The notes under the pieces were generated by a model, which saw nothing but the letters and a program-made list of their open reading frames with translations, searched no databases and was not told the origin of the DNA. The translations under genes and the position numbers were made by a program. 37,697 nucleotides of DNA from Gammaproteobacteria bacterium. Its GTDB lineage: Bacteria; Pseudomonadota; Gammaproteobacteria; UBA4575. Positions 11,060 through 20,316 of the stretch are shown piece by piece. Each line of letters starts with the position of its first letter. Positions within the stretch are counted from its first letter, which is position 1. Location: contig JABDMD010000027.1 of NCBI GenBank assembly GCA_013001685.1, positions 1 through 37,697 on the forward strand, given 5' to 3'.

Positions 11060-11416
11060 GTGAAGCCTTTATCTCTATACTTACTTTTGTTTGTTTTTTT
11101 AGCAAACACAATGATTGCGTCTGTGTGGGCGCAGCCTTGTGTGACGGGTAAAGATTTAATGCCCATGCTATCTGATGCTTCATTGATAGATGAAATGCCT
11201 TGTCATGATATGCAAGAAGATGAATCACAAAATCAAGATCAAAATTGCGAAGAGTTATGCTTATTTCTGAATGTTTTAATTAGCCAAGCATCCATTATTT
11301 CTTCTGATAATTTAAGTGTATCTACTAGTAAATCTATTCATACCTTGACTGATAATGATTCAATCAATTCTATTGAATCACTACCCATTTACCGACCTCC
11401 AATTATTCTTTCTTAG
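11060..11416 (+). CDS. Exported CopL-like protein with cysteine/histidine motif
   Basis: The 118-residue product starts at GTG 11060 and has a signal peptide (MKPLSLYLLLFVFLANTMIASVWA). The mature part carries Cys27, CHDM at 48-51 and C-E-E-L-C at 63-67 in an acidic context, then a Ser-rich stretch and a C-terminal YRPPIILS. The placement directly before an outer-membrane factor and a multicopper oxidase, together with the C/H motifs, resembles CopL/DUF2946-type small periplasmic proteins seen with copper genes. Overall similarity is weak, so copper binding is inferred, not shown. Confidence 0.6.
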   Translation: MKPLSLYLLLFVFLANTMIASVWAQPCVTGKDLMPMLSDASLIDEMPCHDMQEDESQNQDQNCEELCLFLNVLISQASIISSDNLSVSTSKSIHTLTDNDSINSIESLPIYRPPIILS

Positions 11417-11545
11417 GTCTGCAACGCCAGACTTTCGCTATAGTTTTTGACAATCTATTGTCAAAGCATATAGCAATACCATTAGAATTTTATCCGTTAC
11501 GTCAATGGCATAACTACATGATGAGCAGGTATTTAGGAAAGAATT

Positions 11546-13150
11546 ATGAAACTAATTACATACCCAATAGTTGCAGTATTGATACTGCTAACTGGATGTA
11601 CATCGATTCCAGATGATTTAGGGCGAAGTGAAGTAAATATTTTGCTAAGTAAGCGAGGAATTCCTGTGAATGAATCAACTACTGTTACTAAACAAGAACT
11701 TCTTGATTCGCTCACTTCAAAACCATTAACAAGCGAAAGTGCAGTACGCATTGCATTAGTAAATAATCCGCACATGCATGCGACATATGCTGAGTTAGGC
11801 ATTGCAGCCGCTGATGTTTATGAGGCAGGGCGTATGCGTAATCCTGTTTTTCATTTCTCATCGTTGGATACAAATGAGTCAGGTGAGCGCAATCTTACAA
11901 CATTTGGTTTAATCGCATCGTTTACAGATTTGATTACACTGTCTTCCCGCAAACGATATGCGGCAGGTGAGTTTTCTGCTATGAAGCAGTCAGTTGGTGC
12001 CGAAGTATTGGCTATGGCAGCAGAGGTAGAGTCCGCCTTTTATCATTTTGTTGCAGCTAAACAAGTTGCCGCCTTACGTGCGCAAATTGCTAAATCCGGA
12101 GCGATCTCACTTGAGCTAGCGCAACGCTACTATGATGCTGGAAATTTAAGTTCGCGTGAATATGCAATGGAGCATGCAAGCGCTTCTGAACTCCAATTAG
12201 TTTCACTAGAAGCCGAAGCTGATGCGTATGAAAAGCGAACTGAGCTCGCAACCTTGTTGGGTTTGTCCGTAGTTGATGATTGGGATTCACCAGCGCAATT
12301 ACCTGTACCTCTCAAAAATGAAGATGATATTGATGAACTTCTTGAGTTAGCAAAAGATTGTCGACTAGATTTAGCGGCCGCTAATACGCGTGCAGAACTT
12401 CTCGCAAATAAATTAGGGGTTACTAATTGGACGCGATTTTTAGGTGACTTGAATGTAGGTATTGAGCACGAGCGAGAATCTGATGGAGCTGAACTTACAG
12501 GGCCGGCTTTAGAGTGGGAGATCTCAATATTCACACAGAATCGTGATCAGTACTTGAGAGTTAATGCTGAATTGAAAAAAGCGATTGCAGAAGTTCAGTA
12601 CTTAACTGTTGCAATAGAAAATGATGTGCATTTAGCGCACACAGCAACTCAAAATTCTAAAGCTCGCCTAAATGAATACCGTAAAAAATTAATTCCAGCT
12701 CGAATTGAATCCGTTGAACGTGCTCAAGAAGAGGAAAATTTCATGTTAATTGGAACCTTTGAATTGCTGGAAACTAAACGAGAGGAATACGATACCTATC
12801 AAGGTTATTTAGAAGTGGTCCGTGATTATTGGCTTGCACGAACCGAGCTTGCAAATGCAATTGGTACTACTTTGCCTAGCAATGTTCATATCGGTGATGA
12901 GCAATTAGATGTGAAGGAATACATTGCTCCAAAAGATAGCATAATGGATCATTCTGGCCATAACACGCAGCCAGAAGTAGATCACTCAAGTCATGAGATG
13001 CAGCCTGAAACCGATCATTCGGGACATGATATGCAACAAAGTAATGAACACTCTGAGATGCAACATCAAGATAACGAAATGGATCATTCTAGTCATGACA
13101 TGCAGCCTGAAACAAATCATTCAGAACATGATACTCATAGTAGCCATTAA
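11546..13150 (+). CDS. TolC-family outer-membrane lipoprotein with His/Met-rich C-terminal tail
   Basis: The 534-residue protein is an outer-membrane factor. The N-terminus is a lipoprotein signal with lipobox LLTGC (Cys18). Two related halves of helical hairpins follow, e.g. LVNNPHMHATYAELGIAAADVYEAG near 70-95 and the second repeat around 270-300, as in CusC/TolC proteins. The last 68 residues (467-534) are an acidic tail with 14 His and 6 Met in repeated units such as MDHSGHNTQPE, VDHSSHEMQPE and MDHSSHDMQPE, well suited to bind copper or other soft metals. No RND pump or adaptor gene is adjacent; the next gene, 41 bases downstream, is a multicopper oxidase. The metal role is inference from tail and context. 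Confidence 0.9.
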   Translation: MKLITYPIVAVLILLTGCTSIPDDLGRSEVNILLSKRGIPVNESTTVTKQELLDSLTSKPLTSESAVRIALVNNPHMHATYAELGIAAADVYEAGRMRNPVFHFSSLDTNESGERNLTTFGLIASFTDLITLSSRKRYAAGEFSAMKQSVGAEVLAMAAEVESAFYHFVAAKQVAALRAQIAKSGAISLELAQRYYDAGNLSSREYAMEHASASELQLVSLEAEADAYEKRTELATLLGLSVVDDWDSPAQLPVPLKNEDDIDELLELAKDCRLDLAAANTRAELLANKLGVTNWTRFLGDLNVGIEHERESDGAELTGPALEWEISIFTQNRDQYLRVNAELKKAIAEVQYLTVAIENDVHLAHTATQNSKARLNEYRKKLIPARIESVERAQEEENFMLIGTFELLETKREEYDTYQGYLEVVRDYWLARTELANAIGTTLPSNVHIGDEQLDVKEYIAPKDSIMDHSGHNTQPEVDHSSHEMQPETDHSGHDMQQSNEHSEMQHQDNEMDHSSHDMQPETNHSEHDTHSSH

Positions 13151-13191
13151 AGAATTCCAACTTACAAGATTTTAATTATAGGAGAATATCA

Positions 13192-14499
13192 ATGACATCA
13201 CGACGTGAATTTTTGACATACACTGGCGCGGGTGCATTGGCTGCAACAGTTGCACCCAGTGCTATTGCCGAATCTGTAGCAACTGCTTCGACAGGTAATC
13301 TAATGAGTGGCAACCAATTACATGTTCCTGTGCGGACACTTAATGGTTGGACACTGCCTTATAAAATGAAAAATGGAGTAAAAGAATTTCATTTAGTCGC
13401 GGAAGAAATTGAACATGAGTTCGCGCCGGGTAGTGTTGCAAAATGTTGGGGTTATAACGGCACTACACCTGGACCCACACTAGAAGCTGTGGAAGGAGAT
13501 CGTATTCGTATATTAGTAACGAATAGATTAAAGGAACACACAACAATTCATTGGCATGGATTGTTATTGCCGAGTGGTATGGATGGTGTCGGCGGCTTAA
13601 CACAAAAACAAATTGGCCCTGATGAAACCTATGCATATGAATTTACGCTAAAGCAACATGGTACACAGATGTATCACCCGCATGCCGATGAGATGACACA
13701 AATGGCAGTCGGTATGATGGGAATGTTTATCATTCATCCACGAGATGGCGAGAAAATGCCAATCGATCGGGACTATTGTTTCCTTACTCATAACTGGGCC
13801 ATGCATCCGGGCACTTATCGACCTGACCCTTCTGTACTGCAAGATTTTGATTTATGGACATTTAACAGCAAAGTTTTTCCTGAAATTGATCCAGTTGTCG
13901 CACGGACAGGTGAGCGAGTAAGAGTTCGTATTGGTAACTTGTCTATGTGGAATCATCCTATTCATATGCATGGAGTGCAGTTTTGGGTGACAGGTTCCGA
14001 CGGTGGTCGATGGCCAAATTCACGCTGGCGATCTGAAACAACAGAAATTGTAGGTGTGGGTCAAACGCGTGACATTGAATTTATTGCTGAACCTGGTGAT
14101 TGGGCATTTCATTGTCACATGTCACATCACACTATGAATGCGATGGGTCATGGGATTCCAAATACATTAGGTGTAGACCAATCCGGTATCGATAAAGAAA
14201 TTAGAAATATGTTGCCTGGGTTTATGGCTATGGGCGAGCATGGAATGGCGGAGCACCAAGACCATGTGGACATGGGGCACCATCAAGGCCCAGAAAATAC
14301 TTTGGCAATGATGACGGGTAAAGGGCCTTACGGGAATATTGAAATGGGTGGAATGTTTACAACAGTTAAAGTTCGTGACAATTTAAAACCTGGCGATTAT
14401 AACGATCCTGGTTGGTATAACGCGCCTAAAGGTACAGTGGCAGCACGTGTTAGTAGCGATCCTAATTTTGGTAATCCAGTACGCCGTAAGAACACTTAG
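13192..14499 (+). CDS. Tat-exported multicopper oxidase
   Basis: The 435-residue oxidase begins with a twin-arginine signal (SRREFL, then ALAATVAPSAIAES), so it is likely exported folded. All copper-ligand motifs are visible: HWH (120-122), HPH (162-164), HPIHMH (255-260) and HCHMSHHTMNAM (307-318), the last giving type 1 and type 3 ligands. Only two cupredoxin-like domains are apparent before a His/Met-rich C-terminal segment (MGEHGMAEHQDHVDMGHH), so it may be a two-domain oxidase acting as a trimer. AGGAG precedes the ATG. With the upstream His/Met-tailed TolC lipoprotein it suggests periplasmic copper handling; the substrate (Cu(I), phenols, Mn) is unknown. Confidence 0.93.
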   Translation: MTSRREFLTYTGAGALAATVAPSAIAESVATASTGNLMSGNQLHVPVRTLNGWTLPYKMKNGVKEFHLVAEEIEHEFAPGSVAKCWGYNGTTPGPTLEAVEGDRIRILVTNRLKEHTTIHWHGLLLPSGMDGVGGLTQKQIGPDETYAYEFTLKQHGTQMYHPHADEMTQMAVGMMGMFIIHPRDGEKMPIDRDYCFLTHNWAMHPGTYRPDPSVLQDFDLWTFNSKVFPEIDPVVARTGERVRVRIGNLSMWNHPIHMHGVQFWVTGSDGGRWPNSRWRSETTEIVGVGQTRDIEFIAEPGDWAFHCHMSHHTMNAMGHGIPNTLGVDQSGIDKEIRNMLPGFMAMGEHGMAEHQDHVDMGHHQGPENTLAMMTGKGPYGNIEMGGMFTTVKVRDNLKPGDYNDPGWYNAPKGTVAARVSSDPNFGNPVRRKNT

Positions 14500-16907: not shown

Positions 16908-17243
16908 TTAAACTACACTGCCAAATCCTTTATCTGCAGCGCCAGCTGGAGGTTTAAGTCCTGCTAGTCTACAGCCCTGTGCAATTGGGCCGCCTGGAAA
17001 TAAGTTATAGATATGTTTCATTCCGCCTTTATGGTGAAATTTTTCGTCTAATGCATCATGAAGTTCGCGTACATTAATTTTTTTTAACTCATGACGTGAG
17101 TAATATTCTTGTAATGCATGTAGCACTTCTAAATGATCCTTAGAAAGCCTTAGTCCTTCAGATAAAGCCATATTTCGAGCATTTTCTTCAGTCCAGTCTT
17201 CTGGACTGAAGGAATTTTCTGCAATATCGGTTATAGGTTCCAC
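16908..17243 (-). CDS. DsrC/TusE-family sulfur-relay-like protein lacking the penultimate cysteine
   Basis: The 111-residue protein has the DsrC/TusE fold: FSPEDWTEENARNMALSEGLRLSKDHLEVLHALQEYY, then INVRELHDALDEKF and KHIYNLFPGGPIAQGCRLAGLKPPAGA. Cys91 in QGCRLAG corresponds to the inner C-terminal cysteine. The C-terminus ends DKGFGSVV instead of the usual ...GCV, so the penultimate cysteine used for persulfide transfer in DsrC and TusE is absent. Canonical thiol relay is therefore doubtful and a divergent or regulatory role is possible. No dsr or tus partner genes are nearby. Confidence 0.88.
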   Translation of the reverse strand: MEPITDIAENSFSPEDWTEENARNMALSEGLRLSKDHLEVLHALQEYYSRHELKKINVRELHDALDEKFHHKGGMKHIYNLFPGGPIAQGCRLAGLKPPAGAADKGFGSVV

Positions 17244-18597: not shown

Positions 18598-18983
18598 TTA
18601 TAAAAGTGTTTGAGCAATTATCATGACGACTACCATTGCAATTACAAAACCAGCCTCTGCTGCAATAGCGTAAGTGCTTTTTTTGGAGAAAAGCTTCCTG
18701 CAATCATTAATATTAAAATGGTAACGGTGATAAGAATCATGGTCTTTAATGTGACACGAGCAGCAGTTACTCCAACAACCCAAGCTAATAAGAATGTAGT
18801 AATGACTTGAGTAAGCATCGCAGCAATAGGCATTCCAGTTGCTGCAGCTAGGTCTACTCCAACGCCTTCTGCCCACTTGGTGCCGAATAAATTGGCTGAA
18901 TACCATAACCAACCCAATATAAAGGCAGCTATTGCACCGACGATGACAGTAATCCAATTTACATTCGTAGTGAGCTCTTCCAG
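18598..18983 (-). pseudogene. DUF1761 membrane protein gene, frameshifted, CTG start
   Basis: On the minus strand a CTG at 18983 sits 6 bases after a perfect AGGAGG and opens a DUF1761-like protein: NVNWITVIVGAIAAFILGWL, WYSANLFGTKWAEGVGVDL and FLLAWVVGVTAARVTL. At a run of seven A (plus strand T 18678-18684) the frame breaks. The natural end, KKSTYAIAAEAGFVIAMVVV... to LL and TAA at 18598, continues in another frame and would be rejoined by one extra A. Without it the frame runs to 18642 with a non-family tail. DUF1761 proteins are small four-span membrane proteins of unknown role. The CTG may be a mutated ATG. Confidence 0.78.
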
Positions 18984-19238
18984 ATGAGACCTCCTATTTT
19001 TGTTATTAGAGTTGTTGTTTCGTATTGTGTTCTAAATTTAATGATCGTGGCTTCAGAAAATTTGATGTCTTTTATAAACAGAATAATATGAAATCTTTGG
19101 AAATTTTATGGGTCTTATTAATTTTAACTAATAAGATGCCTAAGAATTGGCATAGCTAAATTTTTCAAATATTTGCGGCATCCTCAGGAAAAAAGGTACA
19201 ATAAGTAAGGTATTTATATTTCCAGGCAGGTGGTTAAA

Positions 19239-19988
19239 ATGAAAAAACTTAATATTTCTTTGATTTCAACCCTTTTTGTTATTTCAAGTTGGGCAATGGC
19301 TGAAGAGGCTAAGCTTTTAGATACTTATTTAGTAGATCTGCCTAGTTCTAGTACTCCACAAAACACTATCCTCGGCCAGCCTGTTGATATAGTCATAGAT
19401 GAAAATGGTAAATCTCACGAGGTTGTACGCCCACAAGCTGTGCAATACCGTAGGGTAGAGACTGCAGACGGTTCTATAGTCTATGAGGAGGTTCCTATAC
19501 AGTCAGCCACACCAACATCTACCTCGGATTACCAAGTGATCACAGAAACTAAGATGAACTCAGGTGTAGTTGTCAACAACGGTGTAGAGGTTCAGAGCAA
19601 TCAAGATTTAGAGATTATCGAGCTTGAGCCAGAAGATGGAGAGTTTGCAGTAATCGAAGCACCTGAAAACCAAACTACCCAAACTGTTGCAACCACCAAC
19701 AGAACAGCAATTTCTGGTCATGCATTTTGTCAACAAAATCCTTATGCAAGAGAATGTACGCTGTCTAAATACTTAAGCTTGTGTAAGAAAGATCCTCAAT
19801 CTACCGATTGTAAGAGCCAATTGCAGAAGTTTGATAATTTCTGTGGGACTTTCCCCAATGCGTATAAGTGTAAAAAAGCTAAAATTGCTGCTACTTGTCA
19901 AAAAGATCCTTCGAACAGTCAATGCAAGACTTTTTCACAACGTTATTGTCAAAAATACCCGAAAGCTATTTTTTGTAAGTATAACTAG
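19239..19988 (+). CDS. Secreted protein with five tandem C-x3-P-x4-C repeats
   Basis: The 249-residue protein begins with a signal peptide (MKKLNISLISTLFVISSWAMA); I chose ATG 19239 over the GTG at 19230 because AGGTGG lies at the right distance. Residues about 22-160 are acidic and rich in Val, Glu and Thr, without cysteine. The C-terminal 86 residues hold ten cysteines as five identical units C-x3-P-x4-C: Cys164/173, 182/191, 202/211, 220/229 and 237/246, separated by 7-10 residues. This regular spacing suggests five small disulfide-closed loops in the periplasm or outside. No family was recognised. Gene neighbours give no functional hint. Confidence 0.8.
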   Translation: MKKLNISLISTLFVISSWAMAEEAKLLDTYLVDLPSSSTPQNTILGQPVDIVIDENGKSHEVVRPQAVQYRRVETADGSIVYEEVPIQSATPTSTSDYQVITETKMNSGVVVNNGVEVQSNQDLEIIELEPEDGEFAVIEAPENQTTQTVATTNRTAISGHAFCQQNPYARECTLSKYLSLCKKDPQSTDCKSQLQKFDNFCGTFPNAYKCKKAKIAATCQKDPSNSQCKTFSQRYCQKYPKAIFCKYN

Positions 19989-20151
19989 CATCAAGACACA
20001 GTAATACACACGTGCCTGAGGCAAAAGACTATTTGAATAGCGAGCCTCATTTAATCGGTTAAAATTGTCGTTTAGCCCAGGGAAGGGCTTAAATATCCCG
20101 CGTTATGAGGTAACTTAAAGCTTCTACCTATACTCAAAGGGAGTTTGAGTG

Positions 20152-20316
20152 ATGGCAAGCACTATACCGCTACCCACTGACGTCAGATCGAAATTAATGC
20201 GCAATTTTCTGAAGAGAATTGTTAATAACGATCTACGTGCCAAACAAATTTTTAGACTTTATTTCGATCGTAAAGAAATTTCTGAAGAGCAGTTTTACAA
20301 AGCTATTTCAAACTAA
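20152..20316 (+). CDS. Small hypothetical protein, 54 aa
   Basis: An ATG at 20152 is preceded by AAAGGGAG at about 8 bases. The product is basic and helical: MASTIPLPTDVRSKLMRNFL, then KRIVNNDLRAKQIFRLYFDR and KEISEEQFYKAISN. The composition looks like a genuine small soluble protein, possibly nucleic-acid binding, but no family was recognised. It lies alone in the 512-base stretch between the Cys-repeat gene and rapA, which otherwise shows only short hairpins. Confidence 0.55.
   Translation: MASTIPLPTDVRSKLMRNFLKRIVNNDLRAKQIFRLYFDRKEISEEQFYKAISN

Follow-up and report, generated by a model that had tools for sequence, protein, structure and literature searches.

What kind of protein ends in ten cysteines placed at strictly regular intervals, and what might such a protein do? 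The question is raised by a gene at positions 19239-19988, on the forward strand, of the stretch of gammaproteobacterial DNA considered here (37,697 nucleotides in all, the window). Translation gives 249 codons (19239-19985) followed by a stop (19986-19988), and the sequence offers a likely ribosome-binding site on the same strand, AGGTGG (19228-19233), 5 bases 5' of the ATG at 19239. A scan for promoters and terminators gave no signals above those of shuffled sequences, and a search of Rfam gave no match. On inspection, residues 1-21 (19239-19301) have the character of a Sec-type signal peptide, ending in A-M-A and without a lipobox Cys; the aligned homologues likewise have signal-like N-termini, ending in AxA or SA. 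There follows a Cys-free acidic region, residues 22-163 (19302-19727), with a computed net charge of about -16, probably disordered to judge by its charge, low pLDDT, and faster evolution. The C-terminal 86 residues, of net charge +11, contain the ten cysteines as five units of the form C-x3-P-x4-C, with linkers of 8, 10, 8, and 7 residues between them. A preliminary description had reported these units, the Pro at +4 in each of the five Cys pairs, and the signal peptide and Cys-free acidic region ahead of them; the translation bears out every residue it named.

Equal spacing across all five successive pairs arose in only 3 of 200,000 random placements of 10 Cys within 86 residues, a test that scored spacing alone, the Pro at +4 being not yet demanded. 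The units had been called identical. Their spacing is, but in sequence they are of two alternating kinds. In units pooled from the family, those in even positions have Asp or Asn before the Pro and Ser two residues after it in 15 of 19 cases ([DN]-P-x-S), while those in odd positions have His, Phe, Tyr, or Asn before the Pro ([HFYN]-P). Translation and comparison of units thus place in the odd kind unit 1 (CQQNPYAREC, Cys164/173, 19728-19757), unit 3 (CGTFPNAYKC, Cys202/211, 19842-19871), and unit 5 (CQKYPKAIFC, Cys237/246, 19947-19976), and in the even kind unit 2 (CKKDPQSTDC, Cys182/191, 19782-19811) and unit 4 (CQKDPSNSQC, Cys220/229, 19896-19925). Also, in the proteins called type II below, modules 1 and 2, each of two units and 38 residues, resemble each other to a degree matched by 0 to 2 of 20,000 shuffles that keep Cys and Pro (≤0.0001). 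Since the kinds alternate and the two modules are alike, the building block is a module of 38 residues with four Cys and two predicted helices, clearest in the type II proteins, and this two-unit module is the period of the repeat. In the window protein the first even unit is missing, whether lost or never present.

The gene is present in a single copy in the window genome, and homologues were found in 8 of 19 genomes of one small gammaproteobacterial order. A further genome (G010) has a decayed copy, at about 8000-8300 of L038, which is a type II gene remnant with frameshifts and stops. Profile or protein searches of 369 genomes of the class and 398 of the phylum gave no homologue outside the order beyond chance matches (the weak matches in G555, G195, and G028 being such), nor did collections of plasmid, phage, and viral sequences. 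When the 369 class genomes were scanned for the exact DNA pattern of three units, the only true cases among the matches listed were in the window genome (G000) and G005; the other listed matches resemble short tandem DNA repeats. The members are built in two ways. Type I proteins, which combine the acidic region with five units, occur in the window genus (g1) and in g4; type II proteins, in g3 and g5, have a signal peptide and six units in about 142 residues, with no acidic N-terminal region. An NCBIfam match to PtrA was confined to the signal peptide, and Pfam matches of type II proteins to MLD, DUF6862, and the like, all below cut-off, were taken as the noise expected of low-complexity charged helices. 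We found no description of the family in the literature. It would be an undescribed, order-restricted protein family, in which two architectures can be defined.

In an alignment of eight homologues, the ten aligned Cys are invariant in all eight, at identities as low as 23-24%. Four of the five unit prolines are also invariant, and the remaining one is kept in seven of the eight. Between type I copies, dN is 0.08-0.26 within the repeat and 0.21-0.74 upstream of it, with dS near or at saturation, and the Cys codons vary between TGT and TGC. Because the cysteines are invariant while their codons vary, and because dN is lower within the repeat, the spacing of the units is selected, as the preliminary description had supposed. 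By these sequence comparisons, the repeat is under purifying selection and the acidic region under looser constraint.

No neighbouring gene offers a functional link or a target. The type I gene adjoins rapA and a conserved ORF of 55 residues, which in the window lies at 20149-20316, has no Pfam match, and is conserved next to rapA. The type II gene adjoins a monooxygenase-like gene, joined in two of three cases by a gene for a truncated globin. Since the 55-residue ORF and slyX are found near both, the comparison suggests that type I and type II loci came from one ancestral locus. Elsewhere in the window lie a copper-handling cassette (11060-14499) encoding a small exported protein, an outer-membrane efflux protein whose tail (DHSGHDM) is rich in His and Met, and a multicopper oxidase; a gene for a DsrC-like protein (16908-17243), a hint of sulfur metabolism; and, on the minus strand, a gene for a DUF1761-like membrane protein (18642-18917) whose score falls just below cut-off. 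Nothing corresponding to the cassette was seen in the syntenic regions of the relatives examined.

How might the cysteines be paired? The structural model of the window protein is of low confidence (mean pLDDT 45, with 52-71 in the repeat and mostly 25-45 in the acidic region), and in it helices start at 171, 189, 209, and 227, on or close to the Pro of each of units 1-4. For the type II protein of G015 in its mature form, AlphaFold gives a model with a mean pLDDT of 90.2 and a pTM of only 0.59, as helices at 7-14, 21-36, 41-54, 59-74, 79-92, and 97-113. Its Cys pairs (14/23, 34/43, 52/61, 72/81, 90/99, and 111/120) are each predicted to span a turn between two helices, and neighbouring Cys on the same helix lie 9-11 residues apart. 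Since the latter are too distant to bond and the former flank the turns, intra-unit disulfides are the only simple local pairing the model allows, and the disulfides should close within units. The five disulfide-closed loops foreseen in the preliminary description therefore gain support from the invariant cysteines, the confident helical model of the type II protein, and DsbB, which was found above cut-off in the window genome; the draft genome G006 encodes the repeat protein, yet no DsbB was found in it. Searches by fold of the PDB and BFVD gave nothing above noise (best PDB match E 3.1, TM 0.23; best Z 2.9).

The preliminary description recognized no family in these units. There is, however, a protein that bears comparison. 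CP12 is a regulator of the Calvin cycle in plants and cyanobacteria. Its C-terminal Cys pair is defined by the signature CxxxPxxxxC (PMC9406205), and one disulfide forms inside each of its Cys pairs (PMC9406205, PMC3906501). Arabidopsis CP12 carries the loops CAGDPVSGEC and CKDNPETNEC, which share with the even units an acidic residue or Asn before the Pro and Ser or Thr two after it. CP12 is the best match of the window protein in Pfam and of the family profile in the PDB, yet below the cut-off for Pfam membership: PF02672 gives the window protein 18.3 bits, in a match that takes in unit 2, and matches all eight members, the best scoring 22.3 bits against a gathering cut-off of 22.7. Against the PDB, the family profile ranks CP12 sequences first to fourth (E 0.004 to 0.3), with Arabidopsis CP12 first and entry 6gfo fourth, and the next match has an E of 1.8. 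None of eight shuffles with Cys and Pro left in place matched CP12, and of ten in which the residue before the Pro was kept as well, one did, at 10 bits; therefore the likeness exceeds the placement of Cys and Pro.

One might then take the units to descend from CP12, as a divergent true relative now in the cell envelope with its redox switch kept. The matches in every member, the ranking in the PDB, and the shuffles all speak for descent, but the match is local, mostly to one loop, the scores stay below cut-off throughout, and the Cys pairs of CP12 lie about 32 residues apart rather than 7-11. The AWD_VEEL core of CP12 was seen in none of the eight aligned members, although it is missing also from some CP12-like classes of cyanobacteria (PMC3906501). 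All members have by inspection a signal peptide, whereas CP12 resides in the cytosol or plastid stroma. Searching whole genomes across the order with PF02672 gave no match over cut-off, a CP12 match in G011 is ascribed to chance, and no RuBisCO was found in the window genus or g4. RuBisCO is patchy across the order (e.g., L040 and L041), with strong matches of about 440-450 bits in g6 and weak ones of 42-85 bits in g2, g3, and g5. By core, score, and location, the exported protein is not a CP12. Since it is predicted to be exported and the window genus has no RuBisCO, binding to GAPDH and phosphoribulokinase is unlikely. The likeness is short, and as a comparison of sequences it cannot separate descent from convergence; on balance we consider it unlikely that the units descend from CP12 and keep a redox switch, with an ordered oxidised state and a disordered reduced one.

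Perhaps instead the cysteines remain reduced, holding metal or shuttling electrons in a periplasmic metal-binding protein or thiol redox buffer. Ten to twelve Cys in one small exported protein would suit such a role, as would the His before the Pro in odd units of type II and the weak binding of Cu2+ and Ni2+ by CP12 (PMC9406205). But the His is not retained in type I, C-x8-C spacing around a Pro turn matches the disulfide loops of CP12 rather than the common C-x2-C metal sites, and the copper genes upstream are missing from the syntenic regions of relatives, which leaves this reading quite improbable. The least probable of those weighed is that the protein is a secreted Cys-rich effector or adhesin aimed at another organism: the signal peptide, the stable stapled fold, the fast-evolving acidic region, and the loss or decay of the gene in some species are what one would expect, but no homologous locus has adjacent genes for secretion, adhesion, or host interaction, and no known effector family was matched.

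The protein is thus probably an exported, disulfide-stapled helical repeat, a structural or binding module of the periplasm or the cell exterior. According to this model, the N-terminal signal peptide would direct Sec export, a helix would begin at each Pro, and each unit would form the turn joining consecutive helices, as the structural model of type II indicates. The DsbA/DsbB pathway would oxidise the exported repeat, and a bond between the two Cys of each unit would staple the turn as in the C-terminal loop of CP12. The type I product would then be a rigid, protease-resistant basic rod on a flexible acidic N-terminal tether, and the repeat would most likely serve for binding or as a stiff spacer. 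Whether it represents a new exported architecture, putatively with an envelope or extracellular role, in which the CP12 disulfide loop became the turn of a tandem two-helix, four-Cys, 38-residue module confined to one order, we regard as an even call. If so, the turn that a disulfide closes in CP12 is a portable structural unit, used in tandem beyond the regulation of photosynthetic carbon fixation by the Calvin cycle, through descent or convergence, and nature has provided a modular disulfide-stapled helical repeat that should be easy to test in the periplasm of E. coli.

The family may be set beside three known systems. In twin CX9C (CHCH) proteins, short helices are linked by disulfides between regularly spaced Cys, much as predicted here. 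However, the Cys of CHCH proteins sit within the helices, nine residues apart, and pair two antiparallel helices of one hairpin, whereas in the exported family they are separated by eight residues with Pro in the turn, and no CHCH match was found in Pfam. CP12 is like the exported family in its C-x3-P-x4-C loop, in the helices that flank it (predicted here), and in the intra-unit disulfide, published for CP12 and predicted for the repeat; it differs in having one or two units rather than five or six in tandem and no alternating second kind, and the exported family occurs in bacteria without CP12 of the usual kind. The Sel1-like and Hcp alpha-solenoids are also built of tandem two-helix modules, with disulfides in each module in Hcp; Pfam gave no Sel1 or TPR match and the PDB no fold above noise, and the likeness lies in the tandem arrangement of two-helix modules of about 38 residues.
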